A DNA stretch of 64,000 bases from Calditrichota bacterium (GTDB lineage Bacteria > Electryoneota > AABM5-125-24 > Hatepunaeales > Hatepunaeaceae), in NCBI GenBank assembly GCA_018644935.1, contig JABGPL010000011.1:1-64000 (forward strand). The letters are read 5' to 3'. Shown in pieces: positions 37,345 to 64,000 of the stretch. The notes beneath the pieces were generated by a model. It searched no databases. It worked only from the letters and a program-made list of their open reading frames with translations, and was not told the DNA's origin. The translations under genes and the position numbers were made by a program. Each line of letters begins with the position of its first letter. The stretch's first letter is position 1.

Positions 37345-40300
37345 ATGGAACGTTCCGCGATCGTTTCCGTTGTGCTAATGTTTGCGCTGCTTTTAGCAGC
37401 CGGACCAGTTTTTGCTCAACATTTTGTTTTAGACCCGACCAATGGGGATACACATACACTTTTTGTGGCCTCAGCCACAATTGCAGGTGATGACCTCATA
37501 GAGAATGATGAAATTGGAGTATTCACCACCGCAGGGACCGTAAGAGGTCTGGCAGTGGTTGAAGAGAATGGGGCTATCCCCGAAATCACTGTTTTTGGTC
37601 AGGGTGACGAAGATGGTGGTTTTACCGATGGTGAAATCATGGCATTCAAGATCTGGGATGCCTCAGCCGAAGAAGAGATGACGGCATTTGTTTCCGGAGG
37701 TGCGATTATTACCTTTACCGCAAATGATGCTGACGCTATCTCTTTGGAAGTTCTTGATCAGCACTTTCAATATCAAACCACCGATGCAGAACACTTTCTG
37801 ATTGTCTCTTTGGCTGATATTGATGGAACTTCAATTGCTATCGGCGACGAGATCGGTGTATTTACACCTGATAACGTTTGCGCAGGTGGTTACGTCATCA
37901 CAGAATTAGATGGTGGCGATTTATTCCCTGCTGGTTTTAGCGCTTATGGTGGTCCAACGGGATTCTCGGTCGGTGAAGCACTTTCGTTCAGATTATATGA
38001 TTCGAGCGAGGATACAGAGCATAATGCCAACGCGGACTGGGCGAGCTTCGATGCTCAGACCTTCCTGCCGGATAGAGTATCACCTATTTCTCGACTGTTT
38101 GCTTATACAAACCCAATACCAGCAATTCGGTTTTCAAATGCTTCTCTTGACTTTGGGGATGTCTACTTGCTTGATGGTGAAAGTTCCAGCATCAACTTGA
38201 CAATCCTGAACAATGGGTTTGACGATTTGACGGTGAACTCTATTTCGAGCAATAATAATGCATTTACATTCGACTTTGATGACAATGCATTTGTCCTCGC
38301 ACCGGGTGCGAGACGGGTATTTAACATTACCTTCGTTCCCCCCGAGGCTGGAAATATCGAAGGTGTGTTAACAATCGATAGTGATGATCCAAATGATGAA
38401 GAAGTTACTATCAACATGGAAGGTGTTGGTGTCGTGGCTGAACCTGCAACTCTTGAACTTGAGTCTGATTCAAATGATTTTGGGAGTTTGAATGTTGGCA
38501 GCGAGTCAACCTGGAACATGCACATAACCAACACTGGATATTACAATTTGATTGTTAACAGCATCGTTTCCAACGAAGATGCCTACGAAACAAATTTTGG
38601 TGGTGAACCCCAGGTTATTGCTGGAGGTGCTAGTTTGGACGTTACTGTAACGTTTGCACCTACTCTTCGCGGACAGCAACCTGCTACATTGACCATAACG
38701 AGTAATCATGGTGGAAATTTAGGTGTTGAAACGGTGGTTAACGTAACTGGTTATGGTAATGCGCCAGATATTGCACTGGATTCTGCAGCCGTCCGATTTG
38801 GTGGTGTAATCATTGATGAAGAAGGAACTGCCGTAGTTACAATCACCAACGTTGGTGAACTGAATCTGACAATTCAAGACGTTACAATACCTGGTGATAT
38901 ATTCAGCTCAGATTGGGCTGGTCAACTGGTACTTGCTCAGAACGCGGAAGTCGAGGTGACATTAACATTTGCTCCGACTGCTGAACAAGATTATCAAGAA
39001 ACCATGACGATTACATCAAACGATCCGGGTAACGGTTCGCTCGAGATTCCATTAACAGGTACCGGTGATCCTTATCCACCAGCCGATCTTTCAATTGCTG
39101 TTGGTGACCAGAACCACAATTTCGGTGAAACGACCGTTAATTCTGATGCAGAATGGGTTTTCCCAATTACAAATAATGGTTATCTTGACCTGGTAATCAG
39201 CAATATAACTTCTGATGAAAACACATTCACTACCGATTTTCCTGGTGGAGATGGATGGACAATTGCAAGAGGCCAATCTCAGAATGTGACAGTGACTTTT
39301 GCGCCAACTGAAGTTGGAGATCGGAACGGCACATTAACAATTACTTCAAACGATCAGGGACAAGATGGATCGACTGATGAAGTGACAGTTGCTGGTACTG
39401 GTGTTGCCGAACAATTACCTCAGATTTCTACAAATCCGAATAATGTTGCATTCCCGGATAAAATTATTGGGGAGAGTACGACCGAGATTGTCACAATCTC
39501 AAATATTGGTCAATTAGAATTGACCGTCTCAAACGTTGCAATCGTGAATGACGCCGGCGGCGTTTTTGGCGTTTTGTACGAAGGTAATGCCTGGGACGGA
39601 AATGTAGTGATTCAACCCGCTGCATCTATTCAGGTTTCAGTATCTTTCTCGCCTGATGCAGTTCAAGATTTCACAGGTGATCTGAGAATAACTTCTGATG
39701 ACAGGGATGATGGAACTATTGATGTCGAACTAACGGGTACCGGTCTTGTACAGCCTCCCCCAGACATTTTCGTAGCCCAGGGAGATTTATCCCATAACTA
39801 TGGAAATGTACTATTCGGAACACAGACAACATGGCAGTTTGATATTACGAACAATGGTTATCTTGATCTTGTTGTTGACAGCATTTTAACAAGTCTCGGA
39901 GTGTACACAACAAATCTATCGGAAGATGGTGTAACCCTAGCGGGAGGTGAGTCCACAACAATCACTGCTACATTTGCACCTGTCGCGGGTGTGGAATATA
40001 ATGGTACTCTCACAATATATTCAAACGATGACAATGATAATGAGAGTCCAATTCGCATCACAGTAACTGGTGTCGGTCTTGCGCCGAGAATCACAGTTGC
40101 CCCTGAAAATGTCGCATTTGGTGATGTTGTTGCAGGAAATTCCGAAACAAGTAGCATTCGGATAAGCAACCCAGGTAGTTCTGCCTTAACAGTCACTGAA
40201 ATTCAGTTTAACAATAATGTCTTCAGTGGTGATCTTGGTGGTCAGCAGGTTATTGCCGTTGGTCAATTTATTGACCTCGAATTGACCTTTACCCCGACTG

Positions 40301-43300
40301 ATATTGATGATTTTGAAGGAATACTTACAGTAATTTCAGATGCAGAAAACGACCAGAGCCTCGATATTCCATTGACAGGTGCTGGTGTATCTGCCTTCCA
40401 GTTTACACAAACAGGTGAATCCACAACATTAATCATTAATTCAGGACTTATAAACAATGAAGCAATGATTGAGGGTGATGAAGTTGGTGTGTTCACCCCA
40501 GATGGAGTTTGCGCTGGTGGATCAGTTCTCGGTGCAAATGGTTTTGATTCACCTATTGGTTTCAGTGCCTGGGGAGATGATCTGGGAACTCAAGATGTTG
40601 TTGAGGGATTCACTCGTAACGAAGCTTTCGCTTTCAGGTTATGGGATCGCTCTACCGGTACAGAATATGTTGCGTATGAAAACTGGTCACCCGAGGTTGT
40701 GCCAGTCTGGACAGCAAATGGTGGACCATATGTGATTCTTGAATTATTGGGTTATGACGATCCTCCACCAATTACCAGATTATCAGACAGTAATCTTAAT
40801 TTTGGTGATGTATATCTGTTTGATGGTGAGAGTTCAGCACGTGACCTGACCATCAGGAACATTGGTGGTGCCAATTTAACAATCCAATCGGTTGTTAGTG
40901 ATAACGACGCATTTAGTTTGGACTTCCCCAACCAGATAATTCTTCAACCTGATGCATCAACGACAGTTACAATTACATTTGTGCCTCCGGAACTCGGTGA
41001 TATATCAGGAGTTGTGACGGTTACAAGCAATGATCCCCGTAATGGTGAGATGACAGTCAATATGGCTGGTGTAGGTGTTGAAGCTCCAGCACCGGATATT
41101 GGTGTCAATGAGGAATCGCATGCATTTGGCACAATAGAAGTAGGAAGTCCTTTAACGTGGACACTTGTAGTCACCAATAATGGTTATGAGGCTCTTGTGA
41201 TTGATGATGTTCAATCTGGAAATGCGGCATATACCACTGATTTTGCTGGTGATCAGGTAACTTTGGCTCGTCTTGAAACTATGGATGTAGTTGTAACATT
41301 TGATCCGGCAACTGCAGGTGACTTTAATACAAATCTTACAATTACAAGTAATAACGGTGGTAATGCAAATAGTGAGTACAATGTAGCATTATCTGGTGCT
41401 GCAATCGCTCCTGACATTGCAGTAACTCCCTCACCTGTTGTTTTTGATGACACTATATTCGGAGAAGAGGATACAGCAACACTGACAATCAGTAATGATG
41501 GAGCAGTAGATCTGGTTATTTCTTCGATTACCATTCCCGATGGCGTCTTTTCATCAGATTGGGCAGATCAGCAGACTGTTGTTCCCGGCGAGGAGTATGT
41601 TCTTAACTTGACATTTGCTCCGATTGCAGCCCAAGATTATGAGGTTGTAGCAACAATTGCTTCAAATGACCCCGTTGATGGAAACTTGAACGTTACTCTA
41701 CAAGGTACAGGTTTGCCTCAACCAGCTCCGAATTTGGTGATTGCAGATGAGGATCTGACTCACAACTTCGGTGAAGTATTTGTTGGTAATGGTAGAACAT
41801 GGCAATTCACAATAACCAATGATGGTTATCAGGACTTGGTTATCAGCGATATCGAATCCAACAATAATGTATTTATAACTAACCACCCTGGTGGTGATGG
41901 TTGGACAATAGCAGGTGGTGGGGCACAAGTTGTCACCGCAACATTTACACCAGCAGCAGAGCAGGCCTACAACGGGACTCTTACCGTAGTTTCCAATGAT
42001 GATGGGAACGCCAACACAAGGACAAATATTACGGTTGAAGGTTCTGGTACCTTTGAGGAACTGCCTGAAATAGATTTCAGCACATTGAACGTTGCCTTTG
42101 GCGACGTGATTTTTGGTGAAGCTGGAAATTCTTCTGTTGTGGTCACAAACGTTGGTGATGCTGATTTAAGTGTTCAAGGTGCTGTTCTTGTCAACAATGA
42201 TGATGACAACGTCTTTGAAATGAGTTGGGATGGGGCAGAAGTTTTAGTACCTAATGCTTCTTTGACAATTGACCTGACTTTTACTCCCAACGCAGTTGCA
42301 GCATTTGATGCCATACTCAGGATAACTTCAGATGACGCTGATGAAGCATCAGTTGATATAAACATCACCGGTACCGGTGTTGTTCAGCCTCCTCCTGAAA
42401 TTACTGTTGCTGAGGATGATCAGACTCACAACTTTGGAAATGTTATAGTAGGTCAGGATGTAGCGTGGCAGTTCAATATAACAAATACTGGTTATCAGGA
42501 TCTTGTTGTTGACAGTATTTTGGCGAGCAACGGTGTATTCACAACCAACCTTTCCGAAGATGGCGTGACTATCACGCGAGGTCAATCCACAGCAATTACC
42601 GCCACATTCACACCAATCGCGGGTGTAGAATATAATGGCACTCTCTCAATTTATTCAAATGACGATGAAGATGAGCAAAGCCCTGTAGTTATTACTGTCA
42701 CAGGTGTTGGTCTTACACCAAATATTGTCGTAGCTCCGGAAAATGTCTCTTTTGGTGATGTTGCCGCAGGCGCGACAGAGACAAGTACCCTTCGGATATC
42801 AAACACTGGCGGTGCTGCATTGACTGTGACAGAACTCCAATTTAATAATGCTTTCTTTGGTGGAGATCTTGGTGGTCAGCAGGTTATTGCAGCTGGTGCA
42901 TTTTTAGATGTCGACCTGACATTCACTCCTAATGATATAGATGATTTCGAAGGAGTTCTGACAATAATCTCAGACGCGGAAAATGATGGGGATCTTACTG
43001 TTAATCTAACAGGTTCAGGTGTAACAGCTTTTCAGTTTACACAGACTGGTGATAATGTTCCGATCATTGTAAATGCAGCCTTTATTAATAATCAGGCAAT
43101 GGTTGAAGGTGATGAGATTGGTACATTTACCACCGGTGGTGTGTGTGCAGGTAGTGCCATTATCGGAGTTGGTGGTTTTAACCAGGCTTTGGGTTTCGCC
43201 GCCTGGGCAGATGATGATAATACCGGGAACGTCGTTGAAGGTTTTGTGGAAGACGAGGCGTTTGAATTCAGGTTATGGGATCGCGCCACTGGAACGGAGT

Positions 43301-46300
43301 ATATTGCATTTGAAAACTGGGATTCCGAGGAAATACCTGTATGGGTTAGTGGAGGCGGACCATTTATTCTTGACGAATTGCTTGGTTATGATGTTTCTCC
43401 GCCAATTATCAGGCTTTCCGATGCGAGCTTTAATTTTGGTAATGTCTTTGTATTTGCCGGGGAGAATTCAACACGAGATTTAACCATTACCAATATTGGT
43501 GGTGAAGATCTGACTGTTCAAAGTGTAGTGTCCGATAACGACGCTTTCTCACTTGATTTCCCAGAACAAATTGTTTTACAGCCTGAGGCATCAACAACAG
43601 TTACGGTAACATTCGTACCTCCTGATGTAAATGACTTTGCTGGAGTTATTACTGTCACTAGCGATGATCCAAGGAATGGTGAAGCAACCGTTAATATGGC
43701 GGGTGTTGGTTTAGAAGCCCCAGCACCGGACCTCGTTGTTAACGATGATGTTCATGCTTTTGGTACAATTGAGGTTGGAAGTCCGGTAACTTGGACGTTG
43801 GAAATTACCAATAATGGATATGTAGCACTTGTTATTGATGATATCCAATCTGGAAATGCTGCTTATACTACAGACTTTGCAGGTGATCCGGTTACACTTG
43901 CTCGTCTTGAAACTCTTGATGTTGTGGTTACTTTTGATCCAGAAACCGCAGGTCAATACATTTCGAGCATAACAATCACCAGTAACGATAATGGTGTTGC
44001 TAATAGTGAACTTGCAATCGGTCTGTTGGGTTCTGCTATTGCAGCTGATATTGCTGTTGCTCCTTCACCTGTCGTTTTTGATGATGTGATTATTAGTGAA
44101 GAAGGAGCTGCAACTCTCACAATCAGTAATGAAGGGGATGTTGATCTCGTCATTTCATCAATTACTATTCCCGGTGATATTTTTTCCTCTGATTGGAACG
44201 CTGAACAAACAGTCGCTCCGGATGAGCAGTACGTCCTCAATTTAACCTTCTCTCCAATAGCTGCTCAAGATTATGAGGTTGAAGCGACAATCGTATCCAA
44301 CGATCCCGTTGATGGTAACTTGAACGTAACTCTTCAAGGTACCGGTTTGCCACAGCCGCCTCCGAATATGGTAATCGCAAATGATGACCTTTCCCATGCA
44401 TTTGGCGAGGTTTTTGTTGACAATAACAGAGCCTGGCAGTTCACGATAACTAACGATGGTTATCAGGATTTGGTCATAAGTGATATTGAGTCAAGCGATG
44501 ATGTGTTCACAACCAATTTCCCAGGTGGTGATGGTTGGACAATTGCCGGTAGTGGTGGGACCCAAGTTGTTACCGCAACATTTACTCCATCAGCAGCAGA
44601 AGCCTACAATGGCACTTTGACCATAGTTTCTAATGATGATGGCAATGCAGACACCCGGACTCCGATTACAGTTACTGGTTCAGGTACATTTGAGCAACTT
44701 CCCGAAATAGAATTAAGTTCACTGAACGTGGCATTTGGTAATATTATAGTAGGTGAAGCCGGTGCAACGTCAGTTCAGGTGACCAATGTTGGTGATTCAG
44801 ATCTGAGCGTTCAGGGTGCTGTTCTTGTTAACAATGATGATGACAATGTCTTTGGCATGAGCTGGGATGGTGCTGCTGTTTTAGAAGCCAATGCTTCCTT
44901 AACAATAGACCTGACATTCACACCTAATGCTGTTCAAGCATTCGATGCAATCCTGCGGATTACTTCAGATGATGCTGACGAAGGAACTGTTGATGTAAAT
45001 CTAACAGGTACTGGTCTCACACCTCCGCCAGCTAATATCGTTGTAGCTGAGGGAGACTTGACTCATGCATTTGGTGAAGTCGCATTAGGAGCCGAGGGAA
45101 CGTGGGAATTGCAGATCAGTAATGATGGATACCTCGATTTGGAAATCGATGAAATCTTATCCAGTCATGCGGTCTTCACAACTAATTTCCCACAGGAGGG
45201 AGCGACAATTGCAGGCGGTGCTTCTGCCACATATACAGTGACATTTGCTCCAACTGCTATTGCAGATTATACAGAGACTCTGACAATAAACTCAAACGAT
45301 GATCAATTGGTCATCAATGTTACTGGTTCTGGTATCGGTCCTGAGATTGCAACGGATCCCGGTTCAATTGCCTTTGGTGAAGTTCGATTAGGTAATTCGG
45401 GAACAGAGACTTTGCAGATTCAAAACACCGGTGGTGCAGTGCTAACTGTAACCGAAGTTCAATTTGACAATGGTGTGTTTACATCAAACTTTGATGCTGA
45501 ACAAACTATCGATCCGGACCAGTCGATATCCATTGAGGTTAGCTTTGCACCTGATAATATTAGCGATTTCAACGGTGTGATGACAATTGTATCGGATGCG
45601 GAAAACGATCAAAGTCTAGATGTGAACTTAACCGGTACAGGTATTGCCCACTTTGAGTATGAACTTACAGAACAAAGTCATAACATCATCGTTGTGGAGG
45701 CTACAATTGACGATGAACAACTGGCTGCAGGCGATGAAGTTGCTGTCTTTACCCCGGGTGGAATATGTGCTGGTTCAGGATCATTCGTTGGGCCGGGAGA
45801 ATCAATAGGTTTAGCTGCATGGGGTGATGATTTAGGAACTGAACCGATTGAAGGTTTTGCCAATGGTGAAGTGATATATTTCAAAATCTGGGATAACAGT
45901 GCACAAGCTGAGTATGATGCATTTGCCGATTGGACAGATGGATTTTCTACCCCCAACTGGGTGAATAACGGTCTCGGTCAGATAGATTTACTCTCAGCGA
46001 ACTCACAACCGACTCCTTTACTCGAATTATCTGCTGCCGAATTAGCTTTTGGAGATGTATTTGTATTTGCAGGTGAAAGCTCAACTCAGGAATTGACGAT
46101 ATCGAACGTTGGTAATGCTGACTTAACGGTTTCAAACATTGTTAGTGACAATGACGCGTTCACAACTGATTATGATCAGGATATAGTCATTGCTCCTCGA
46201 GAAAGTGCGGTTGTTACAATTACCTTTATTCCTCCAAATACAGGTGAGATTGCTGGTACTTTGACAATAACCAGCGATGATGCAAATAATGCAGAAACAA

Positions 46301-55300: not shown

Positions 55301-58300
55301 GTGTTGGCTATGCACCAGATGTCCATTTTGATTTTGTTACAACTGGCGATGACGCATCCATTTTGGTAAACTCTGCGCTGCTTGATGATGAATCACTCGT
55401 TCTATTTGATGAAATCGCAGTCTTCACACCAGCTGGATTATGTGCAGGTGCTGTGGTTATTGGTGCTGATGATATCAATTCACCGTTCCCGGCAGGATTT
55501 TCTGCTTGGGGTGATGATCCACAAACGGAAGGAGTTGTGGAAGGTTTCAGTGCTGGTGAAGAAATGACCTTCAAGTATTGGGATGTATCTGCTGAAGCTG
55601 AATATGCTGCCACAATTTCAGAGGTGCTAGCAGGTGGGAATGTTTGGAATCCAGATGGCTTTAATGTCATCACACTGGGAGGCACTTCACGGGTACCTCA
55701 TTTTGAATTTGTTACAACCGGTGATGACGCATCAATTTTGATAAACTCTGCTCTACTTGACAATGAATCACTCGAGCTATTTGATGAGATCGCAGTCTTC
55801 ACACCGGGTGGACTATGTGCTGGTGCAGTGGTTATTGGTGCAGATGATATAGATTCACCATTCCCAGCAGGATTTTCTGCATGGGGTGATGATTCCCAAA
55901 CTGATGATGTAGTAGAGGGGTTTGTAGCTGGTGAGGAAATGTTATTCCGTTATTGGGATGTTTCTGCTGAACAGGAATATGATGCCACTATTTCAGAGGT
56001 GCTTGCAGGTGGAAATGTTTGGAATCCAGATGGTTTTAATGTCCTTACACTTGGGGGTACTTCAGCTGAACCACATTTTGATTTTGTTACGACCGGTGAT
56101 GACGCTTCTGTTCTGATTAACTCCGCTCTTCTTGACGGTCAATCTCTTGAATTGTACGATGAAATCGGGGTATTTACACCAGCTGGAACTTGTGCTGGTG
56201 CCGTTATAGTTGGATCCGCAGATCCAGATGCACCATTCCCTGCAGGACTATCAGCATGGGGTGATGATTCCCAAACTGATGATGTAGTAGAGGGATTTGT
56301 TGCAGGTGAGGAAATGTCTTTCCTCTATTGGGATACATCCGCTGAAATTGAAATTGAGGCTTCAATTAGTTCAATAGTATTCGGAGGCAGTGTTTGGAAC
56401 ACTGATGGATTCAATGTAATCACACTCGGAGCCTATACTGGTGATGCTCCTGCAATTTCAGTATCTGATGTTGAATTTGATTTCGGTGAAGAAATCATTG
56501 GACACAGGGAGCTAAGGACATTAACTGTAACCAATATTGGCGCTCTTAATCTCGAAATTGAACCATTTGCTGATATTCCAGGATTTTTGATTTCTCCGTC
56601 AGCGGATATCGTAATAGAACCCGGCAATGTACTTGATATTTCAGTAGTATTCCAGCCACTTGAAGAGATAGCATACGACGCTGTTCTTCAATTAAATTCA
56701 AATGCAGAAAACTTACCACAAATAGATGTCAGCCTTGTCGGTGTTGGTATACCTGGTGTCTTAAGATGGGATTACATCGAAACCGATATCAGTATGTCAT
56801 TGGAAATTGAAAATGCTACCATAGATGACACACCGCTGGTCGAAGGTGACCAGATTGCCGCCTTTACTGTTGAAGGTTTATGCGCAGGTGCCTCAGCTGT
56901 TCCAGCACAGTTCCCATTTACGATGGAAATCTGGCGTGATGACCCAACAACCAATGATGTTGATGGATTTGCTGAGGGTGAAGAAATAAGTTATCTGTAC
57001 TGGGATGAAGAAGGTCAACGAGAGTGGACAGCATTAGCAACTTATGTTTCAGGTCCGGAAGTATTTGAATCTGATGGAGCTTCTGTAATACAATTAAACG
57101 CCTTCTCACGTGGAAACAGGTTCAGCTTTATACAAACTGAAACTACCCATTCTTTGATTGTCAATCAGGCACTGTTGGATGAAGCTTCCATCGAGGATGA
57201 TGATGAAATTGGTGTTTTCACTCCTGGTGGAGTATGTGCTGGTGCAATCGCCTTTGGAGCAGCCTATGAAAATCCGGAATTCCCGTTAGGGATTGGAGTT
57301 TGGAATGATGATGCCGGTACAGATGAGGTTGAAGGGTTTGTTCAGGGTGAGGAGTTCTCATATCTGATCTGGGACTATTCTGCACAGGCTGATTATGAAG
57401 CCACAGCAGAATATATCGATGGATTGTCCGTCTGGACTCCGAATGGATTCTCCGTGTTAAATCTTAATGCGACTTCTATTGCTGATCAAACCATTGCATT
57501 GTCGAGTAGTGACTTTGACTTTGGTCCCGTGATTGTTGGAAACGAAAGCACCCAACAGATTACAATCACAAATGAAGGTGACTTAGACCTTACAATTACC
57601 GAAGGTTCAATCAATCCTGAAGTCTTTACCGTGAGTTTCGAAGGACAACCCGGAGTACCTCAAACTGTACTGAGTGCAAACGAAGAATTGATACTGGATC
57701 TCACATTTACCCCAGACGCAGGTGGAGATTTTGAAGGCACATTGGAAATCACAAGTGATGATCCTCTGAATGCTGTAGTCGTTGTCACATTAGTGGGTTC
57801 TGGTATTGAAGCCGGACCACCGGTAGTTGCACTTTCTACAGACCAAAATGATTTTGGGGATGTAATTGTTGGTCAGTTTGAAGAATGGACTCTCTCGATT
57901 CTTAATGAGGGTGGTGCAGATCTTGAGATATTAGATGTTACTTCTTCTGATGTTGCGTTTGACTTCTCAGGACCGACAGAGAATAATGTAGTTGCCGGAT
58001 TCTCAACAGAATTGAAAGTTACTTTCCGACCAAGTGCTGAAGCAGGTTTCAATGGTGTTCTCGAAATCAGTACTAATGATGAGGAAACTCCAGTTGTTGA
58101 AGTACAACTTTCCGGTAATGGTGTGGTCACAGATGTCCAATGGCCATTTACAATGACCGCCAACAATATGTCGATTGTAGTCACCTCTGCCACGATCAAT
58201 GGAGATGAATTAGACAACAATTATGAAATCGGCATACTCACGCCCGATGGTGTTTCGGCTGGTGCAGCAATTATTCCTGTCGCAAACCCATTCCCATTGA

Positions 58301-61300
58301 ATGTTAATGCTATCGGTGATGATGGAGGAACTGGTGAGGTTGAAGGTTTTGTTGCTGACGAGACATTAAGTTATAGAGTTTGGGATGCGGCTGGCAGGAT
58401 GGAGATTTCAGCCGTTCCAACTTACGGTGTTGGAGAGGGAGTTTATGCTGATGGTGGATATGCAGAAGTAGGATTAATGGTACTCTTTGGTTTACAGGAA
58501 AATCAACACTTCCAGCATTTTGAAACCGACGTAAGTCACTCACTGGCAGTTGAATCTGCAATCCTTGATGGCTTACCTTTATATGAATCTGACGAAATCG
58601 CGGTCTTTACTGAGGTCGGATTATGTGCTGGTGCAAGCGTTATTACTGAATTGGGGGCAGAAATCGGAATAGCTGCCTGGGGTGATGATGCTGCGACAGA
58701 AAATATAATCGAAGGATTCCAACAGGGTGAAGCATTTGAATACAGGTATTGGGATGCATTTGCCGAGATAGAAATTTCTGTTGACCCGACTTATATTCAG
58801 GGACCAGAGGTCTATACAGATAATGGGTTCACGATTCTTTCTCTGAACGTTGATCTTGATCGTCGGTCAAGTATTGTAGTCATAGATGATCCTCATGACT
58901 TTGGTCAGGTTGAAGTGCTGCAATCAGCAGAATGGAGATTGAACATAACCAACGAAGGGGATGGAGATCTTCATCTCCAGAATGCTACCATAGAAAATGA
59001 TGCTTTCACAGCAGAATTTGATGATATTTGGTTGAACCCAGGTATAAGTACCGATTTGGTAGTTACTTTCAATCCTATTCTGATTGGTGATTACGCAGAG
59101 GTTATGACCATAATTTCAAGTGATGAAAACAACCCAGAGATCACAATAGATCTCACAGGTACTGCATTCTACACACCTCGAGCGAATATCGTTGTCAGTG
59201 AGGAGTCAATAGATTTTGGAGAAGTATTTGTTGAAGCGAGAGGCGAACAAACAGTTACCATTACCAACACAGGTGATGCGAATCTCATAGTTGCTCGAAT
59301 TAATACTGACAGTGATTTATTCACACTCGATGTATCAGTGCTTCCATTAGAATTTTATTGGGAATTCACTGAAACAGCTTTAACAATGGACTTAACAATT
59401 TCTGAAGTCCTCCACTTGGGGGATCCTCTAGGAGTTGGTAACTCTGTTGGAGTCTTTACACCTTATGGTCAGTGTGCTGGATTTGGTACAGTTGCAGTAG
59501 ACGAAGTGTTAGCCTTTACTGCCTATGGAGATGATCCAGAGACCGAAGGAATCGAAGGCTTCCGTGAAGGTGAAGAGCTGAATTTCCGAATTTGGGATGA
59601 CGCTGAAAGTAGAGAATATGTCGCTGATCCAACATACAATGAGGGAGCTGGAGTATTTGGTGATGGCACAGCATCTGATGTTGGCCTGAACTTAGAAGAA
59701 TTTGAAGCGGTTATAGGTATTCAGAATCCTGTAATTCTGCTTCCCGGTCAGGTCATAGAGGTTGTAGCCGGCTTTGAGCCGGACGTAGAGGGAGATCATG
59801 CAGCGACTCTGATTATTGCATCAAATGATCTCGATGCAGCTGAAATCGAGCTGCCGCTTACCGGTGTTGGTGTATTGACACCTCCTCAAATTAGTCTTAC
59901 CGAGGATGCTCATGATTTCGGTGATGTCCTTGTAGATGAAGAACTGGTTTGGAATCTCGAACTAAACAACCTTGGTCAACAACCATTATCAATTACTGAC
60001 ATCACAATCGAAGGTGAGTATTTCACACGAGTATTTGATGGCGTCTTTGAAATTCCACGGGCTGGTCAGGTAATTGTACCGGTCACATTTACACCACTCG
60101 ATCAGGGTGACGTAGTTGGAACAATCGTTATTTTCTCGAATGATGAAAATCAACCTGAAGTAACAGTTTCATTAAACGGACGAGGCACAATGCCTCTGCT
60201 CCGTGTAGATCCTGATGCCTTTGCATTTAACGATGTCATCCAGCTGGTGTCTGAGATGCAAGAGCTTACCATTTACAACGATGGTAACATTACTCTCGAT
60301 ATTGAGAGCTTGACCACAACGAACGAAGTATTCTGGGTAGAGGTAGATATACCGGCAGAGTTCAACTGGGTATCTGTTGAAACTGACAATAGCCTCGTGG
60401 CAACTATCGAATCTGCCGTGATTGACGGAAATTCACTCATAGCTGAGGACTACATAGGCGTGTTTACCACAGATGGAATTTGTGCCGGTTACGTCCAACC
60501 AGCTGAGTTCCCCGTCGAATTGACAGTATACGGTGATGATGGCCAGAATCAGGAAGTTCAGGGATTTGCAGCTGGTGAAGCTCTCGAGTTCCGCTACTGG
60601 GATGCAAGTGCAAGCTCAGAAAGTGTTGCATCAGCCGATTATTCCAATGGTGATGGTAACTATCAGGCAGGAGCCGCACATACACTTGCTCTGACATCAT
60701 TCCAGGGATTTGCACCATTGCATGCTGATCAGATTCTCAGTATAGAAGCAGGTGGTAGCCATACCGTTGGTGTATACTTTGAACCTGTTGAGCAGATTGC
60801 CTACGATGAGACACTCACAATTGAGTCAAACAATCCTGTTGCCCATGGTGGTACTGAACTTGATATCCCACTTACCGGTAGCGGTTTGAATATCGATCCG
60901 ATTGTCTTAAACCCAATTGATCAGGTCGTTGTAGATGAAGACCCGGGTGTTATTGTTATCGGTGATCTGGATGATGTATTCTCAGATGCTGATGGCGATG
61001 CCATGACATACACCTTCGCAGGTAACCCGGACGAACTAAACCTCGCTCTGGATGGAGACAATGTTCTTTCATTTGATCCCTCTCCTAATTATAATAACGC
61101 TGATGGTGTTGTTGTAACATTTACAGCAACAGATGATGATCAGGGATCTGTTGATCATGAAGTAACATTTATCATTAATCCAATCAATGACGCACCAGTT
61201 GTTGTTGCCCCAATTGATGATCTTGTTGAAGACGAAGATCCCGGTGATGTCATCATTGCCGATCTGGATGATGTCTTTAGCGAAATTGAAGATGAAGCTA

Positions 61301-64000
61301 TGATCTTCTCGGTTGAGGGTGCTCCTGAAGAATTAGGTATGTACATCAATCAGGATAATGTTCTTGGCATAAATCCAGTTCTTGACTTTGTATCCCCTGA
61401 TGCAATAATTATCACTGTATCAGCTGAAGATGAACAGGGTCTTATCGGAATAGATGAGTTTACAGTTACGATTAATCCCATCAACGATGCACCTGTTGTC
61501 CTTAACGCCATTGATGATCAGACCGTTGATGAAGATCCTGAGCTGACAATTGTCGCGGATCTTGATGTCGTATTCTTTGATGTTGATGGTGATGAATTGA
61601 CCTTTGGATTTGTAGATGCACCGCAGGAAATTAATATGGCGATTGATCAGGATAATGTTCTCAGCTTCAACCCGAATGAGAACTACAATCTTGAAGATGG
61701 TGTCACCATAACAGTATCAGCAGAAGATATTGATGGTGAAATTGCATCTGATCAGTTCATCTTAATTATTGTTCCGGTCAATGATGCACCGTTTGTCGCA
61801 AACGAGATTGCAGAGATAAACATTGATGAAGATCATGGTAGATATGAAGTTGGTGATTTGAATGTGATATTCGATGATGTTGAAGGTCATGCAATGCGCT
61901 TTAGTTTTGCAGGAGCACCCGATGAATTGAATATGGAAATCGACATCATCACAAAGATTCTATTCTTCCATGCTGACGACAATTTCAATCTTCCTGATGG
62001 TGTTGATATCACCATAACCGCGGATGACAGACACGAGGGAATTACAGACTATGTCTTCAGAGTTGTGATAAACAATGTCCCTGATGCTCCAATAGTTGTT
62101 CAACAACTATTTGACGTCCGGTTCAATGAAGATAACGGGATGGTCATATTCCCGGACATGGATGACATATTCTCTGACTCCGATAGTGAAGTATTAACCT
62201 ACACTATCACTGAAGGCTTGGAAGAGTTTAACCTCCAGATTGATGAAGAGAATGTCCTTTCCATGAATCCGGATCAGGACTTCAATATCGATGAGGGTTC
62301 ACAGGTTACAATAACTGCAACTGACGACACCGACCTCTCCGTCGCTGAAAGCTTCAATATAGCGTTAACTCCTGTTAATGATCTACCTGTAGCCGGTGAT
62401 ATTGATGATATAGTTGTGGATGAAGATTCCGGATTTGTTGTAGTTGCCGATTTGGATGATGTGTTCTCAGACGTTGACGGTGATGCTCTGGCATATACAA
62501 TCTCTGATGCACCGGCAGAAATCAATATGGTCGTTGACGGTGATGCAGTATTATCATTTGATCCGGACGCAGACTTTGTCATTCCGAATGGAGTTGACAT
62601 TACAATAACGGGTACTGATCCAGATGCAGAAACAGCAGAAATCACATTCAATCTCACAATAACGCCATTCAACGATGCGCCTGTTGTACAGGCTCCGTTT
62701 GAGGATGTATCAATTGATGAAGATGCCGGCCGAGTTGTCGTTGCTGACCTCGATGATGTGTTCTTAGATGTTGATGGAGATGTTCTCACCTACACATTTG
62801 TGAGTGATATTGCGGAACTTAATGTTGACATTGATGATGATAATGTCCTGTTCTTCAATCCTGACGAAAACTTCAACCTTGCTGGTGGCACGGATATTAC
62901 AGTTAGTGCTGAAGACGATGATGGTGAGATAGTTTCCGATGTTGTGAACATTATTGTTGTCCCTGTCAATGACCAACCCACAATAATTACCGCAATTGAA
63001 GACATAACGCTTGCCGAAAACCCTGGTTTGGTAGAGATTGCCGATTTGGATGCTGTGTTCAATGACAATGACCTTGGAGATGCTGATCCAGATGTTCTTA
63101 CATTTACATTTGAAGGTGCTCCAGAAGAAATAAACATGGTCATAGATAATGACAATGTTCTATCGATTGAACCTAATGCTGATTTCAATGTGGAAAACGG
63201 TGTTGAGATAACCATAGTTGCTACTGATGAGGCTGACGAATTTGCACAAGACATATTTGTGCTGATTATTACTCCTTCTCCTGCAGAAATATTTGTCTCG
63301 GACGATGCACATAACTTTAATTTAGTTTATGCAGGTGAGACTGCTGACTGGGAATTCCAGATATCAAATATTGGCACAGGTGTTTTGACGATTGATGCGA
63401 TCGAGCTTACTACTGAGTATTATACTGTTGATTTTGATCAACCAGTAGACCTTCAACGCGACGAGAGTTTACCTGTTACGGTAACATTTGCTCCTGATGG
63501 TCTTGGATTCTTCCAGGATCAGATAACCATTTTTTCAAATGACAATGGTAATCCAGAAGTAGTTGTCAACCTGATTGGTGAAGGAAATCGTTCTATCATT
63601 CGAGTTGAACCTGATGAACACGACTTTGGAGATGTTCTGGCCGGTTCAAGTACAAGAAGAGAGCTTGAGATATTTAATGACGGTAACGTTGACCTTGATA
63701 TCTCTGATGTAACAGTCAGCGATGAGCAATTCCGATTTGAACTTGGTGCACTTCGTGAATTTGATTGGGAATTTATAGATACCGGTATCAACATGAATGT
63801 TGTAGTTGGTAGCGCAGATTTAGATGGTGAAGCTTTGGTAGATGGTGACCACGTAGGTGCTTTCACCTCTGGTGGTATATGTGCCGGCTCCGTGCCAGTA
63901 GCAGAGGAGATGTTCCTGACCGTATGGGGTGACGATCCTGACGCTGGTGGGACTCAAGGTTTCAATGAAAATGAGGAAATTGAATTCCGGTATTGGGATG
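37345..64000 (+). CDS. Giant secreted repetitive surface protein (at least 8,885 aa; 3' end outside window): ASH/choice-of-anchor-D-like repeats, VFT/CAGA modules, cadherin-like repeats
   Basis: Absent from ORF track because it has no in-window stop. RBS AAGGTG then ATG MERSAIVSVVLMFALLLAAGPVFAQ (signal peptide). I read the frame to the last base (..FNENEEIEFRYWD) and saw no stop. Confidence 0.93.
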   Translation, partial: MERSAIVSVVLMFALLLAAGPVFAQHFVLDPTNGDTHTLFVASATIAGDDLIENDEIGVFTTAGTVRGLAVVEENGAIPEITVFGQGDEDGGFTDGEIMAFKIWDASAEEEMTAFVSGGAIITFTANDADAISLEVLDQHFQYQTTDAEHFLIVSLADIDGTSIAIGDEIGVFTPDNVCAGGYVITELDGGDLFPAGFSAYGGPTGFSVGEALSFRLYDSSEDTEHNANADWASFDAQTFLPDRVSPISRLFAYTNPIPAIRFSNASLDFGDVYLLDGESSSINLTILNNGFDDLTVNSISSNNNAFTFDFDDNAFVLAPGARRVFNITFVPPEAGNIEGVLTIDSDDPNDEEVTINMEGVGVVAEPATLELESDSNDFGSLNVGSESTWNMHITNTGYYNLIVNSIVSNEDAYETNFGGEPQVIAGGASLDVTVTFAPTLRGQQPATLTITSNHGGNLGVETVVNVTGYGNAPDIALDSAAVRFGGVIIDEEGTAVVTITNVGELNLTIQDVTIPGDIFSSDWAGQLVLAQNAEVEVTLTFAPTAEQDYQETMTITSNDPGNGSLEIPLTGTGDPYPPADLSIAVGDQNHNFGETTVNSDAEWVFPITNNGYLDLVISNITSDENTFTTDFPGGDGWTIARGQSQNVTVTFAPTEVGDRNGTLTITSNDQGQDGSTDEVTVAGTGVAEQLPQISTNPNNVAFPDKIIGESTTEIVTISNIGQLELTVSNVAIVNDAGGVFGVLYEGNAWDGNVVIQPAASIQVSVSFSPDAVQDFTGDLRITSDDRDDGTIDVELTGTGLVQPPPDIFVAQGDLSHNYGNVLFGTQTTWQFDITNNGYLDLVVDSILTSLGVYTTNLSEDGVTLAGGESTTITATFAPVAGVEYNGTLTIYSNDDNDNESPIRITVTGVGLAPRITVAPENVAFGDVVAGNSETSSIRISNPGSSALTVTEIQFNNNVFSGDLGGQQVIAVGQFIDLELTFTPTDIDDFEGILTVISDAENDQSLDIPLTGAGVSAFQFTQTGESTTLIINSGLINNEAMIEGDEVGVFTPDGVCAGGSVLGANGFDSPIGFSAWGDDLGTQDVVEGFTRNEAFAFRLWDRSTGTEYVAYENWSPEVVPVWTANGGPYVILELLGYDDPPPITRLSDSNLNFGDVYLFDGESSARDLTIRNIGGANLTIQSVVSDNDAFSLDFPNQIILQPDASTTVTITFVPPELGDISGVVTVTSNDPRNGEMTVNMAGVGVEAPAPDIGVNEESHAFGTIEVGSPLTWTLVVTNNGYEALVIDDVQSGNAAYTTDFAGDQVTLARLETMDVVVTFDPATAGDFNTNLTITSNNGGNANSEYNVALSGAAIAPDIAVTPSPVVFDDTIFGEEDTATLTISNDGAVDLVISSITIPDGVFSSDWADQQTVVPGEEYVLNLTFAPIAAQDYEVVATIASNDPVDGNLNVTLQGTGLPQPAPNLVIADEDLTHNFGEVFVGNGRTWQFTITNDGYQDLVISDIESNNNVFITNHPGGDGWTIAGGGAQVVTATFTPAAEQAYNGTLTVVSNDDGNANTRTNITVEGSGTFEELPEIDFSTLNVAFGDVIFGEAGNSSVVVTNVGDADLSVQGAVLVNNDDDNVFEMSWDGAEVLVPNASLTIDLTFTPNAVAAFDAILRITSDDADEASVDINITGTGVVQPPPEITVAEDDQTHNFGNVIVGQDVAWQFNITNTGYQDLVVDSILASNGVFTTNLSEDGVTITRGQSTAITATFTPIAGVEYNGTLSIYSNDDEDEQSPVVITVTGVGLTPNIVVAPENVSFGDVAAGATETSTLRISNTGGAALTVTELQFNNAFFGGDLGGQQVIAAGAFLDVDLTFTPNDIDDFEGVLTIISDAENDGDLTVNLTGSGVTAFQFTQTGDNVPIIVNAAFINNQAMVEGDEIGTFTTGGVCAGSAIIGVGGFNQALGFAAWADDDNTGNVVEGFVEDEAFEFRLWDRATGTEYIAFENWDSEEIPVWVSGGGPFILDELLGYDVSPPIIRLSDASFNFGNVFVFAGENSTRDLTITNIGGEDLTVQSVVSDNDAFSLDFPEQIVLQPEASTTVTVTFVPPDVNDFAGVITVTSDDPRNGEATVNMAGVGLEAPAPDLVVNDDVHAFGTIEVGSPVTWTLEITNNGYVALVIDDIQSGNAAYTTDFAGDPVTLARLETLDVVVTFDPETAGQYISSITITSNDNGVANSELAIGLLGSAIAADIAVAPSPVVFDDVIISEEGAATLTISNEGDVDLVISSITIPGDIFSSDWNAEQTVAPDEQYVLNLTFSPIAAQDYEVEATIVSNDPVDGNLNVTLQGTGLPQPPPNMVIANDDLSHAFGEVFVDNNRAWQFTITNDGYQDLVISDIESSDDVFTTNFPGGDGWTIAGSGGTQVVTATFTPSAAEAYNGTLTIVSNDDGNADTRTPITVTGSGTFEQLPEIELSSLNVAFGNIIVGEAGATSVQVTNVGDSDLSVQGAVLVNNDDDNVFGMSWDGAAVLEANASLTIDLTFTPNAVQAFDAILRITSDDADEGTVDVNLTGTGLTPPPANIVVAEGDLTHAFGEVALGAEGTWELQISNDGYLDLEIDEILSSHAVFTTNFPQEGATIAGGASATYTVTFAPTAIADYTETLTINSNDDQLVINVTGSGIGPEIATDPGSIAFGEVRLGNSGTETLQIQNTGGAVLTVTEVQFDNGVFTSNFDAEQTIDPDQSISIEVSFAPDNISDFNGVMTIVSDAENDQSLDVNLTGTGIAHFEYELTEQSHNIIVVEATIDDEQLAAGDEVAVFTPGGICAGSGSFVGPGESIGLAAWGDDLGTEPIEGFANGEVIYFKIWDNSAQAEYDAFADWTDGFSTPNWVNNGLGQIDLLSANSQPTPLLELSAAELAFGDVFVFAGESSTQELTISNVGNADLTVSNIVSDNDAFTTDYDQDIVIAPRESAVVTITFIPPNTGEIAGTLTITSDDANNAETTVNLTGTGVEAPAPDLALNANSHDFEIVQINSPEDWTMVVTNEGYQDLIVTGIASDNNVFSTDFAGDPVTIVKDASINVVVTFDPQTVDEFAGALTITSNTGGQEGTDTQVTLTGESIAPQIAVSPSPVVFDDTIFGEENQKVLTIRNNGAVDLTVTALTIPGDIFSSDFAGQVVLGQNEETAVTVTFAPAAEQAYNGVLTIESDDPLNGSLEVNLQGNGLAQPLPDLTIANEDLTHDFGNVLVDNTREWEFDITNDGYQDLVISNLESSIGQFTTDFPGGNGWTIAGGQSQTVTVTYAPDNDQLHEGELTVTSNDQGQDGSQVTISVVGQGTLEAVPSIAVNQESVAFGTVIIGEQGNATITVTNNGDANLNVTGVSIINDASGVFGFTWDGAAVLATNNTLEIALTFDPDAEANFTGDLRIASNDPENGVLIVPLTGAGQTPDPAEVSLSEASHGFGDVLVGDTDTWQVTIENVGYLPLTIDEIVSNNNVFTTDFPEDPVVITRGNSETYTVSFIPADVADYEATLSIISNDANSPTVINLTGSGVVPVIEAAPAQIAFGEAGLYDTQTVNLTISNTGGAVLNVTDVRIANDQEGRVFVSDFVEDQAINPDQSIEVAITFTPVAEDDYTGTVTITSDASNDQSLEIALSGSGVFPDPHYEVAQSADSHSIIVTEAILDGEDLVNGDEIATFTQDGLLAGAIVVIVGEDTGLAAWGDDTGTNDVVEGFASGEEMSFRYWDVSAQEEIEAEVSSIISGGINWSVNGFTILALSGISAPTPIITLDTESLDFGELIENFTSDLEFTITNIGVEPLVVSNIVSTDADHFTTDFDQEITLDPQASQVMTVTFAPDAAQLFEADIRITSNSPGRELKIVTVSGTGLVTPPPVLTLSENAHDFGEVQIGIPQTWDLTLSNTGYGTLNVSAINSSHEAFQTNLQDGGIDLGRNEQVVVTVTFDPQSVEVYDDELTIISNDNNQEGTETVVAIEGIGIQDGEPEVTANPAAIAFGEIVAGQSETVSLQISNTGSANLTVTNLLIGEEEFTVDFGGEQVLAPQGSFNVDVVFTPPDFQVYEGTLTIHSDDPNNAQLQVALSGEGVAPDEHYVVTQVADSHSIIVTSALLDGEDLVDFDEIGVFTPGGLLAGSSVIRIGEDIGMPAWGDDTGTQGEIEGFGAGEEMSFRYWDYSAQEEISAQVVSVNVGSLNWSVNGFTILSLSGISAPEPLIFVDPASLVFDDLVEFETSDLELTVRNIGVEVLTVSNIVSTDTDHFTINYDQEFTLDPEESRVFTVTFAPDTDQLFEAELRITSDSPGRELTTVPVSGTGLPTPPPLLTLSANSHDFGEVQIGIPQAWNITLSNTGYGTLIISEINPSHQDFTTNLQQGGVELTRNQTVVVSVTFDPQNEADYDETLTIVSNHNDEEGSETIVSVTGNAVAEGTPVISLNRGSIAFGEVLVGESGTATLRISNNGSANLNVTDLAIAGDVFGTDWGGAEVVAPQSSINVQVNFTPEDYIAYEGTLTVHSDDPQNAQIEIPLTGEGTRPPAHFEFVTTGENASVLINSATLDGESLELYDEISVFTPDGICAGATVIGEGNVDDPFPTALAAWGDDDQTNGVVEGFTAGEEMSFRYWDTSAEVEVEAFVDQIVVGGRTWNVDGFNVITLIANRAANPIINVTPATIAFDETVNGFTSVVEVQVSNIGTELLQVTNVVSADEDHFTVDFQNGFDLDQGEFYTLNVTFAPDAVADFNANLEITSNSVDGLEVVPMTGTGIAPPPQELTINPASLDFGEVLIGLPQTREITLTNIGYEDLTISQVVSDNAFFTTDFPNNDVVLARNVSTVLTVTLDPEEAIQYDGTLTVHSDNLGQDSQTEITVTGLGVTDGNAEISVTPDLVSFENTLFGQVSNATMTIENTGSAVLNVTDISADLNVFGVDFAGALSVNPNQTVTVDLTFAPVADQVYNGSITIASNAIDNESYNLPVVGVGILPAPHFEFTTTGDDASVLINSALLDGELLEILDEISVFTPGGLCAGAVVIGAENFDEPFPTALAAWGDDSQTEDVVEGFQAGEEMSFRYWDSSAEIEYEAFIDQIIVGGRNWNVDGFNVITLSVTTAETPIINVSPATIAFEETVNGFTSEVQFEVSNVGPELLSVTDIVSTDEAHFTIDFQNGFNLAQGAFTTFTVTFAPDAVDEFSAELQITSNSDGGGVLVVPMTGAGIAPPPQELSLSQNNWDFGNVQIGLPQTREVTFTNIGYEDLTINSVVSDNAAFSTDFPNNDVVLALNETQVLTITFDPDEAVQYDGILTVNSDNLGQQSQTDIAVTGVGVVEGDPGILVTPDLVSFDNTLVNQVGTSTIRVENNGAGVLNVTDMTTGGDIFGIDFQGAFSLDPNQSVTIDMTFSPTDEQVYNGSLTISSNAVGDEQYILPLVGVGYMIPAHFEFTTTGDDASILVNSATLDGESLVFSDEISVFTPGGICAGAVIIGADDINSLFPAGFSAWGDDSQTEDVIEGFAPGEEMTFRYWDASAEAEYPASIEEVIVGGSTWNVDGLNVITLGGSTVEIPDPHFEFVSTGDDASVLINTALLDGESLELYDEIAVFTPNGICAGAVVVGLENADDPFPTALAAWGDDSQTDEIVEGFTAGEEMSFRYWDVSAELEIEAFINEIVIGGRIWNVDGFNVITLGANTAETAILNVIPDPVSFDETVNGFSSEIEVEISNTGPEVLHVSNIVSTDPDHFSLDFSSELDLNQGEFSTFIVTFAPDAVSDFNADLQITSNSEGGGVEVIPMTGTGIAPPPQELSLSIAAWDFEEVQIGLPQTQEVTLSNIGYEDLTISQVISDNAAFTSDFPENDVILARTESTILTITFDPEEAVQYNGIITVHSDNLGEATQTDITVAGIGVVQGDAEIAVTPELVSFNNTLLGGSATSSVTIENTGAGTLNVSDMATDIEEFSVDFQNAFDLNPNETITVELTFSPIANRVYNGSLTIASNAVNDQEFSVPLVGVGYAPDVHFDFVTTGDDASILVNSALLDDESLVLFDEIAVFTPAGLCAGAVVIGADDINSPFPAGFSAWGDDPQTEGVVEGFSAGEEMTFKYWDVSAEAEYAATISEVLAGGNVWNPDGFNVITLGGTSRVPHFEFVTTGDDASILINSALLDNESLELFDEIAVFTPGGLCAGAVVIGADDIDSPFPAGFSAWGDDSQTDDVVEGFVAGEEMLFRYWDVSAEQEYDATISEVLAGGNVWNPDGFNVLTLGGTSAEPHFDFVTTGDDASVLINSALLDGQSLELYDEIGVFTPAGTCAGAVIVGSADPDAPFPAGLSAWGDDSQTDDVVEGFVAGEEMSFLYWDTSAEIEIEASISSIVFGGSVWNTDGFNVITLGAYTGDAPAISVSDVEFDFGEEIIGHRELRTLTVTNIGALNLEIEPFADIPGFLISPSADIVIEPGNVLDISVVFQPLEEIAYDAVLQLNSNAENLPQIDVSLVGVGIPGVLRWDYIETDISMSLEIENATIDDTPLVEGDQIAAFTVEGLCAGASAVPAQFPFTMEIWRDDPTTNDVDGFAEGEEISYLYWDEEGQREWTALATYVSGPEVFESDGASVIQLNAFSRGNRFSFIQTETTHSLIVNQALLDEASIEDDDEIGVFTPGGVCAGAIAFGAAYENPEFPLGIGVWNDDAGTDEVEGFVQGEEFSYLIWDYSAQADYEATAEYIDGLSVWTPNGFSVLNLNATSIADQTIALSSSDFDFGPVIVGNESTQQITITNEGDLDLTITEGSINPEVFTVSFEGQPGVPQTVLSANEELILDLTFTPDAGGDFEGTLEITSDDPLNAVVVVTLVGSGIEAGPPVVALSTDQNDFGDVIVGQFEEWTLSILNEGGADLEILDVTSSDVAFDFSGPTENNVVAGFSTELKVTFRPSAEAGFNGVLEISTNDEETPVVEVQLSGNGVVTDVQWPFTMTANNMSIVVTSATINGDELDNNYEIGILTPDGVSAGAAIIPVANPFPLNVNAIGDDGGTGEVEGFVADETLSYRVWDAAGRMEISAVPTYGVGEGVYADGGYAEVGLMVLFGLQENQHFQHFETDVSHSLAVESAILDGLPLYESDEIAVFTEVGLCAGASVITELGAEIGIAAWGDDAATENIIEGFQQGEAFEYRYWDAFAEIEISVDPTYIQGPEVYTDNGFTILSLNVDLDRRSSIVVIDDPHDFGQVEVLQSAEWRLNITNEGDGDLHLQNATIENDAFTAEFDDIWLNPGISTDLVVTFNPILIGDYAEVMTIISSDENNPEITIDLTGTAFYTPRANIVVSEESIDFGEVFVEARGEQTVTITNTGDANLIVARINTDSDLFTLDVSVLPLEFYWEFTETALTMDLTISEVLHLGDPLGVGNSVGVFTPYGQCAGFGTVAVDEVLAFTAYGDDPETEGIEGFREGEELNFRIWDDAESREYVADPTYNEGAGVFGDGTASDVGLNLEEFEAVIGIQNPVILLPGQVIEVVAGFEPDVEGDHAATLIIASNDLDAAEIELPLTGVGVLTPPQISLTEDAHDFGDVLVDEELVWNLELNNLGQQPLSITDITIEGEYFTRVFDGVFEIPRAGQVIVPVTFTPLDQGDVVGTIVIFSNDENQPEVTVSLNGRGTMPLLRVDPDAFAFNDVIQLVSEMQELTIYNDGNITLDIESLTTTNEVFWVEVDIPAEFNWVSVETDNSLVATIESAVIDGNSLIAEDYIGVFTTDGICAGYVQPAEFPVELTVYGDDGQNQEVQGFAAGEALEFRYWDASASSESVASADYSNGDGNYQAGAAHTLALTSFQGFAPLHADQILSIEAGGSHTVGVYFEPVEQIAYDETLTIESNNPVAHGGTELDIPLTGSGLNIDPIVLNPIDQVVVDEDPGVIVIGDLDDVFSDADGDAMTYTFAGNPDELNLALDGDNVLSFDPSPNYNNADGVVVTFTATDDDQGSVDHEVTFIINPINDAPVVVAPIDDLVEDEDPGDVIIADLDDVFSEIEDEAMIFSVEGAPEELGMYINQDNVLGINPVLDFVSPDAIIITVSAEDEQGLIGIDEFTVTINPINDAPVVLNAIDDQTVDEDPELTIVADLDVVFFDVDGDELTFGFVDAPQEINMAIDQDNVLSFNPNENYNLEDGVTITVSAEDIDGEIASDQFILIIVPVNDAPFVANEIAEINIDEDHGRYEVGDLNVIFDDVEGHAMRFSFAGAPDELNMEIDIITKILFFHADDNFNLPDGVDITITADDRHEGITDYVFRVVINNVPDAPIVVQQLFDVRFNEDNGMVIFPDMDDIFSDSDSEVLTYTITEGLEEFNLQIDEENVLSMNPDQDFNIDEGSQVTITATDDTDLSVAESFNIALTPVNDLPVAGDIDDIVVDEDSGFVVVADLDDVFSDVDGDALAYTISDAPAEINMVVDGDAVLSFDPDADFVIPNGVDITITGTDPDAETAEITFNLTITPFNDAPVVQAPFEDVSIDEDAGRVVVADLDDVFLDVDGDVLTYTFVSDIAELNVDIDDDNVLFFNPDENFNLAGGTDITVSAEDDDGEIVSDVVNIIVVPVNDQPTIITAIEDITLAENPGLVEIADLDAVFNDNDLGDADPDVLTFTFEGAPEEINMVIDNDNVLSIEPNADFNVENGVEITIVATDEADEFAQDIFVLIITPSPAEIFVSDDAHNFNLVYAGETADWEFQISNIGTGVLTIDAIELTTEYYTVDFDQPVDLQRDESLPVTVTFAPDGLGFFQDQITIFSNDNGNPEVVVNLIGEGNRSIIRVEPDEHDFGDVLAGSSTRRELEIFNDGNVDLDISDVTVSDEQFRFELGALREFDWEFIDTGINMNVVVGSADLDGEALVDGDHVGAFTSGGICAGSVPVAEEMFLTVWGDDPDAGGTQGFNENEEIEFRYWD
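37741..48270 (+). repeat. Four higher-order repeats of ~2.63 kb, each one VFT module plus seven ASH-like repeats
   Basis: Units begin near 37741, 40381, 43021 and 45641; same-slot repeats match across units (e.g. 'PSPVVFDDTIFGEE', 'FGTIEVGSPLTWTL', 'AFQFTQTG'). Confidence 0.85.
48271..55310 (+). repeat. Five higher-order repeats of ~1.33 kb, one (or two) VFT modules plus three ASH-like repeats
   Basis: Units begin near 48271, 49591, 50921, 52250 and 53595; same-slot motifs 'PAHFEFTTTGDDAS', 'GIAPPPQELSL', 'VSFDNTL'. The last unit has two VFT modules in tandem (~53602 and ~53980). Confidence 0.83.
55321..56430 (+). repeat. Three directly tandem VFT modules with no ASH repeat between them
   Basis: Copies at ~55321, ~55696, ~56071 (~375 bp period); near-identical DNA such as 'gatgattcccaaactgatgatgtagtagagggRtttgt' in copies 2 and 3. 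Confidence 0.85.
60904..63285 (+). repeat. Eight tandem cadherin-like repeats (~297 bp each)
   Basis: Repeated 'DEDPGxVxxADLDDVFSDxDGDxLTYTFxGAPxELNMxIDxDNVLSFNPxxNFNxxDGVxITITAxDDDG...INPINDAPVV'. Confidence 0.85.

Follow-up and report, generated by a model that had tools for sequence, protein, structure and literature searches.

The window analysed here comprises positions 1 to 64,000 of contig JABGPL010000011.1 from a Calditrichota bacterium. Its right part is taken up by a giant gene on the + strand, which likely starts with the ATG at 37345 and stays open in a single reading frame up to the contig end at 65,127. Since the frame reaches the contig end, the encoded protein is longer than 9,200 aa and its C-terminus lies beyond the assembly. 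An SD-like motif (AAGAAGG) is located 9 nt upstream of this ATG, and the protein begins with a signal peptide (MERSAIVSVVLMFALLLAAGPVFAQ, judged by eye from the sequence). The gene upstream (31446-36548) encodes a C25 peptidase of the gingipain type that carries a T9SS sorting domain (PF01364, PF18962) and lacks the module described below.

A giant gene with 21 copies of one module

A module of about 115-125 aa, present in 21 copies, had been proposed for this gene in a first-pass annotation. An HMM detected exactly 21 such domains in the open reading frame, none missed and none extra, with scores of 82.7-157 bits each. In a search of the whole genome the proposed consensus alone recovered each of the 21 copies on this contig (E 4.5e-41 to 6.5e-9), and the approximate starts given there agree with the HMM starts to within about 10 bases. 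Copy 21 had been described as cut by the edge. This is correct for the window, as the copy ends at contig position 64089, but the gene itself is cut as well, by the contig end at 65,127.

The features of the gene are listed below. Modules were located by HMM, the halves of split Ig domains by an Ig profile and the remaining domain blocks by profile segmentation.

37345..37419, +, signal peptide (read from sequence)
37420..37746, +, module copy 1, mature N-terminus (82.7 bits)
37762..38094, +, module copy 2 (101 bits)
38122..40386, +, 7 Ig domains (choice-of-anchor D / HYDIN-type; NF012200, PF22544)
40393..40737, +, module copy 3
40771..43020, +, 7 Ig domains
43027..43374, +, module copy 4
43405..45642, +, 7 Ig domains
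45649..45990, +, module copy 5
46018..48261, +, 7 Ig domains
48277..48615, +, module copy 6
48640..49587, +, 3 Ig domains
49603..49941, +, module copy 7
49966..50913, +, 3 Ig domains
50929..51282, +, module copy 8
51307..52248, +, 3 Ig domains
52264..52617, +, module copy 9 (sequence used for fold prediction)
52642..53586, +, 3 Ig domains
53602..53955, +, module copy 10
53986..54339, +, module copy 11 (tandem with copy 10)
54364..55308, +, 3 Ig domains
55324..55677, +, module copy 12
55699..56052, +, module copy 13 (tandem)
56074..56427, +, module copy 14 (tandem)
56452..56748, +, 1 Ig domain
56764..57096, +, module copy 15
57118..57465, +, module copy 16 (tandem)
57490..58122, +, 2 Ig domains
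58138..58476, +, module copy 17
58507..58845, +, module copy 18 (tandem)
58870..59166, +, 1 Ig domain
59185..59352, +, split Ig 1, left half (model positions 2-52)
59356..59688, +, module copy 19, inside split Ig 1
59689..59871, +, split Ig 1, right half (joined halves 75.3 bits)
59887..60186, +, 1 Ig domain
60196..60363, +, split Ig 2, left half
60364..60693, +, module copy 20, inside split Ig 2
60694..60885, +, split Ig 2, right half (joined halves 66.8 bits)
60889..63276, +, 8 cadherin-like repeats (Big_9 / tandem-95; PF17963, PF17803, NF012211)
63286..63585, +, 1 Ig domain
63595..63762, +, split Ig 3, left half
63763..64000, +, module copy 21, inside split Ig 3 (window edge at 64000, copy ends at contig position 64089)

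With V for the module, i for an Ig domain of the choice-of-anchor D / HYDIN type, c for a cadherin-like Big_9/tandem-95 repeat and brackets for an Ig domain interrupted by a module, the domain order that profile segmentation gives downstream of the signal peptide reads V V i7 V i7 V i7 V i7 V i3 V i3 V i3 V i3 VV i3 VVV i VV ii VV i [iV] i [iV] c8 i [iV] c3. The contig end falls inside the last cadherin-like repeats (c3). A domain scan of the open reading frame with Pfam and NCBIfam found no catalytic or enzyme domain, and no RTX family was matched in the part of the protein lying on the contig. Contig C129, which carries the most similar paralogous modules and was considered as a candidate for the missing 3' part, shows no overlap of 15 bases or more with the gene.

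Among the seven closest module copies dN/dS was 0.07-0.21 where finite, values that are approximate as dS exceeds 1 and is near saturation for most pairs. These low ratios indicate purifying selection and therefore a real, constrained coding sequence rather than a chance open frame. The two minus-strand open reading frames at 62274-63254, antisense within the repeats, look spurious. Long higher-order blocks share 71-72% of their DNA sequence and module copies 12 and 13 share 82-84%; the higher-order units of the protein have spread through duplication.

Sequence, predicted fold and placement of the module

The 21 copies show a mean column identity of 53%, and T35, G42, G74, F75, E79 and D87 are invariant in their alignment. 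Near-invariant in the consensus are T, D, (G)VFTP.G.CAG, WGDD, GF..GE, WD and E positions. When 29 members were scanned singly against Pfam-A and NCBIfam, no family recurred, the best single chance matches having E values of 0.021 and 0.011, respectively; the first-pass annotation had named the lack of a covering Pfam model as support for a new domain. Scans of Pfam, NCBIfam and PDB gave no sequence match to a CBM or lectin family. A PDB sequence search with the module returned chance matches only (depolymerase, glucan lyase, Rab-3C; E 0.63 or worse), and a wider module profile matched nothing there. No literature on the module, or on choice-of-anchor D giants in KSB1 or Marinimicrobia, was found in open-access sources. 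Relative to Pfam, NCBIfam and PDB the module is an undescribed domain family.

AlphaFold2, run on 29 natural copies, predicts an eight-strand all-beta module (pLDDT 92.5, pTM 0.85). A Foldseek search of this model against PDB and viral structures yielded no match at E <= 1e-3, with a best PDB value of 0.024, and no known CBM fold in PDB was matched significantly. The top matches were generic Ig/transthyretin-type sandwiches with large rmsd, and TM values within the top 50 were 0.39-0.41 at most. For the predicted structure this outcome means that no fold relative can be assigned, which falls short of proving a new fold. Profile-profile comparison (hhalign) of the module gave a probability of 0.1% with the choice-of-anchor D Ig domain (NF012200/PF22544) and of 0.4% with the T9SS CTD. 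It is safe to speak of a new beta-sandwich domain family of T9SS-exported surface proteins, and the source family has amplified it strongly.

Most of the 21 copies stand in line with the Ig domains, outside split Ig domains, and in the source genome 25 copies are flanked by full Ig domains. Copies 19, 20 and 21, by contrast, each interrupt an Ig domain, and all three at the same point: the left half covers model positions 2-52 and the right half about 53-103. Scored apart the halves reach 36-47 bits and joined 67-75 bits, compared to 63-103 bits for intact Ig domains. The arrangement half-Ig, module, half-Ig was detected in at least 12 further cases in four other proteins of the source genome and its relatives, and one of these split Ig domains holds a tandem module pair between its halves. 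In giant RTX adhesins ligand-binding domains are recognised by their budding from split Ig-like domains. In the Aeromonas hydrophila adhesin (5047 residues) and its kin the budding domains are those that bind ligand, and a binding test confirmed one of them as a fucose lectin (PMC12077191). By analogy, insertion into split Ig domains is the best available clue to the function of the module.

The C-terminal cassette and the spread of the module

Complete paralogues, e.g. an open reading frame of 4384 aa with 11 module copies, terminate in a T9SS sorting domain (TIGR04183/PF18962). A recurrent order, which is the commonest setting of the module, was found across phyla, consisting of a module (type A), two repeats of about 85 aa termed GWN repeats, a second module (type B), a linker and the sorting domain. 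The GWN repeats follow the pattern GWNMIS...IVKN..G..Y.P...N.IG....GYQ (e.g. L031:4093-4656; also in L030, L034 and source-genome loci). A GWN profile detected 120 of them in 63 sampled open reading frames, and no Pfam or NCBIfam model matches them; the GWN repeat is a second undescribed domain. The end GWN-GWN-module-CTD is present in 53 of 65 sampled open reading frames bearing a tail, a fraction that describes module proteins rather than T9SS cargo overall as this sample was picked via module matches.

The spacing within the cassette varies little. From the start of A to the start of B there are 299-307 aa in KSB1, Bacteroidales and Flavobacteriales. In the source genome the last module lies 14-26 aa (mode 18) ahead of the [YFH]PNP motif in 29 of the 31 complete CTD-bearing module open reading frames, and in KSB1 it lies 28-30 aa ahead of the sorting-domain motif in 11 of 12. 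AlphaFold2 modelled the A-GWN-GWN-B cassette from six loci with low confidence (pLDDT 56, pTM 0.37); module A was missing from two of these six rows, which were misaligned. We infer that the missing 3' end of the giant gene carries a GWN-GWN-B-sorting-domain cassette.

The source genome encodes the T9SS translocon protein SprA (TIGR04189, 803 bits, with neighbouring matches; G000:C201) and at least 150 T9SS CTDs over the cut-off. Among the top 150 CTDs, at least 17 directly follow a module, a lower bound given the incomplete module list behind it. Because so few of these CTDs do, the module is unnecessary for export, and we abandoned the view of it as an obligatory component of the T9SS signal. 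Another contig of this genome (G000:C134; L044, L045) carries five tandem paralogues of about 1990 aa, each ending with GWN-GWN-module B-T9SS tail; a scan of one of them identified a propeptide-bearing peptidase of the C25 type (PF01364, PF08126).

In a tree of 197 copies types A and B stood apart (6 changes, compared to a mean of 17.3 and a minimum of 13 after shuffling), and all 91 internal copies of the source family were closest to an A-type outgroup copy. Both results point to amplification of type A as the most likely origin of the array copies, including the 21 copies of the giant protein.

The source genome (4.5 Mb) contains at least 118 module copies detected with one profile and at least 150 with a wider one. 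All eight other analysed genomes of the same family contain the module as well, with 17-75 copies in each, and copies were also detected in 25 of the 39 genomes analysed from the source phylum and in 42 of the 79 sampled from the KSB1 phylum. A 'Deferribacteres' MAG (L030, CAJVYQ010000048.1) is one of the genomes sampled as KSB1, its record name being probably outdated. The first-pass annotation had pointed to a likeness to secreted proteins of the Bacteroidetes type. This was right in kind, as copies in Bacteroidales, Flavobacteriales and KSB1 MAGs adjoin T9SS sorting domains. At least 150 copies were counted in one Bacteroidales MAG (G064, locus L034) and 27 in one Flavobacteriales MAG. In 22 further genomes of the same domain (Bacteria) no copies were found. 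Only one of the 149 sampled Bacteroidia genomes has the module; the patchiness is striking, with at least 150 copies in one Bacteroidales genome and none in the other 148 sampled Bacteroidia. Transfer or MAG contamination are possible sources of the copies in this Bacteroidales MAG.

The proteins carrying the module are diverse and include gingipain-like C25 peptidases, LVIVD beta-propellers and Ig rods. In three other genomes of the same family (G006:C357, G002:C21 and G003:C108) open frames with the module extend over 10,816, 10,055 and 8,938 aa, respectively. As giant module-bearing frames are also found in these genomes, the giant forms are a trait of the family.

Proposed ligand-binding heads and alternative roles

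We propose that the giant protein is a T9SS-exported, multivalent surface adhesin in which the module copies act as ligand-binding heads on a rod of Ig and cadherin-like domains, and consider the chances for and against this reading, drawn by analogy, as balanced. The module exists as two ancient forms. Type B is placed 14-30 residues ahead of the T9SS sorting domain, usually after two GWN repeats, and type A ahead of the GWN pair; in the source family, type A has most likely been multiplied into long arrays. The giant protein carries 21 A-like copies along its rod, partly in tandem and partly projecting sideways from split Ig domains, and the Ig and cadherin-like domains would serve as spacer. 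Ligand binding by the module is probable by comparison with the budding domains of the RTX adhesins; the split-domain rule, transferred here by analogy, derives from adhesins that are type I-secreted. Counting against heads are the lack of a sequence match to CBM or lectin families, the lack of a significant match to a solved fold, and the in-line position of most copies. A wider generalisation, in which the new domain family, with its two ancient subtypes and its companion GWN repeat, would serve T9SS-exported surface proteins of uncultured FCB-group bacteria as a major ligand-binding head, some lineages carrying more than 100 diversified copies per genome on giant multivalent adhesins, is put forward tentatively and seems to us slightly more apt to fail than to hold.

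The main rival explanation sees in the module a pure structural beta-sandwich stem, B spacing or docking the cargo relative to the sorting domain and A lengthening the rods, with no ligand involved. The rigid spacing between B and the CTD agrees with it. In the gingipain RgpB secretion is blocked by a mutation that perturbs how the CTD contacts the domain before it (PMC11285876). Sortase cleavage sites are located in the coil that connects the final domain of the mature part to the CTD (PMC11969387), so that B would end the mature protein. The many copies in line with Ig domains fit a stem, too. A spacer leaves unexplained, however, why the module is inserted into split Ig domains at one fixed point and why the W, GDD, GF, E and WD positions are so strongly conserved, and the dispensability of the module for export counts against this explanation, too. 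A stem alone is a real possibility which we would nonetheless not expect to hold. Both roles could also exist side by side, B being a stem and A a head.

Alternatively, the copies might bind each other, GWN repeats or matrix proteins and in this way join T9SS-secreted proteins into a polymeric surface coat or sheath. The very high copy number per genome on many different cargoes and the order A-GWN-GWN-B kept across phyla would suit such assembly, but the cassette structure was predicted at low confidence only, and we regard this explanation as unlikely. Still less probable is a diverged known domain, i.e. a neighbouring Ig domain, a T9SS CTD or a known CBM missed by ordinary HMMs. The module is likewise a beta-sandwich of similar size, but the Pfam, NCBIfam and PDB searches gave no relative, the Foldseek matches were poor, and on the hhalign probabilities a diverged Ig domain or CTD was rejected.

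Compared to known systems, the proposed adhesin resembles the RTX adhesins AhLap and MpAFP, which are acidic proteins with an export signal, a long Ig-like extender rod and binding modules in split Ig-like domains. These are type I-secreted, however, and contain RTX repeats, an N-terminal retention domain and 1-3 such modules (PMC12077191), whereas the giant protein has a signal peptide, a T9SS context and 21 copies of a module without sequence or significant fold match. With T9SS type A cargo (TIGR04183 / PF18962) it shares the signal peptide and large extracellular beta-rich repeats, and in most sampled relatives B directly precedes the sorting domain. This sorting domain is known, but the module and the GWN repeats ahead of it are undescribed in Pfam and NCBIfam. 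The choice-of-anchor D / HYDIN-type Ig domains (NF012200, PF22544) form the rod between the copies and are unrelated to the module by profile comparison. The IgSF domain of RgpB is a beta-sandwich adjoining the CTD, and its contact with the CTD matters for export (PMC11285876). Neither sequence nor fold searches linked it to the module, the likeness being one of position alone. SiiE and a 7651-aa Mobiluncus adhesin are alike in size and in their repeated Ig-like rod but use other secretion or anchoring systems, and no such interspersed module is reported in their abstracts (PMC5466336, PMC10619420). Giant Ig-rod surface proteins that leave the cell through a known system are thus a familiar kind of object, whereas the module, the GWN repeat accompanying it and the cassette seem to lack a description in Pfam, NCBIfam, PDB and the open literature searched.

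The module is abundant and shared between phyla, yet absent from Pfam, NCBIfam and PDB. With models for both the module and the GWN repeat, the C-terminal region of many hypothetical proteins now named 'T9SS sorting domain-containing' could be annotated. A ligand-binding head budding from split Ig domains is a testable hypothesis arising from these data, and suggests that giant adhesins of another secretion system acquired their split-domain design separately.

The mature giant protein contains 17.4% D+E, 0.1% lysine and 1.3% arginine; ordinary proteins encoded in this window have 4-6% lysine. The near-absence of lysine and the low arginine content possibly provide protection against Lys/Arg-specific surface proteases. 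Low lysine contents (0.1-0.8%) were also observed in other module-rich proteins of the bacterial family. In 17 of the 21 copies the module contains a single conserved, unpaired cysteine (residue 40, within FTP.G.CAG), and the rest of the giant protein is almost cysteine-free.
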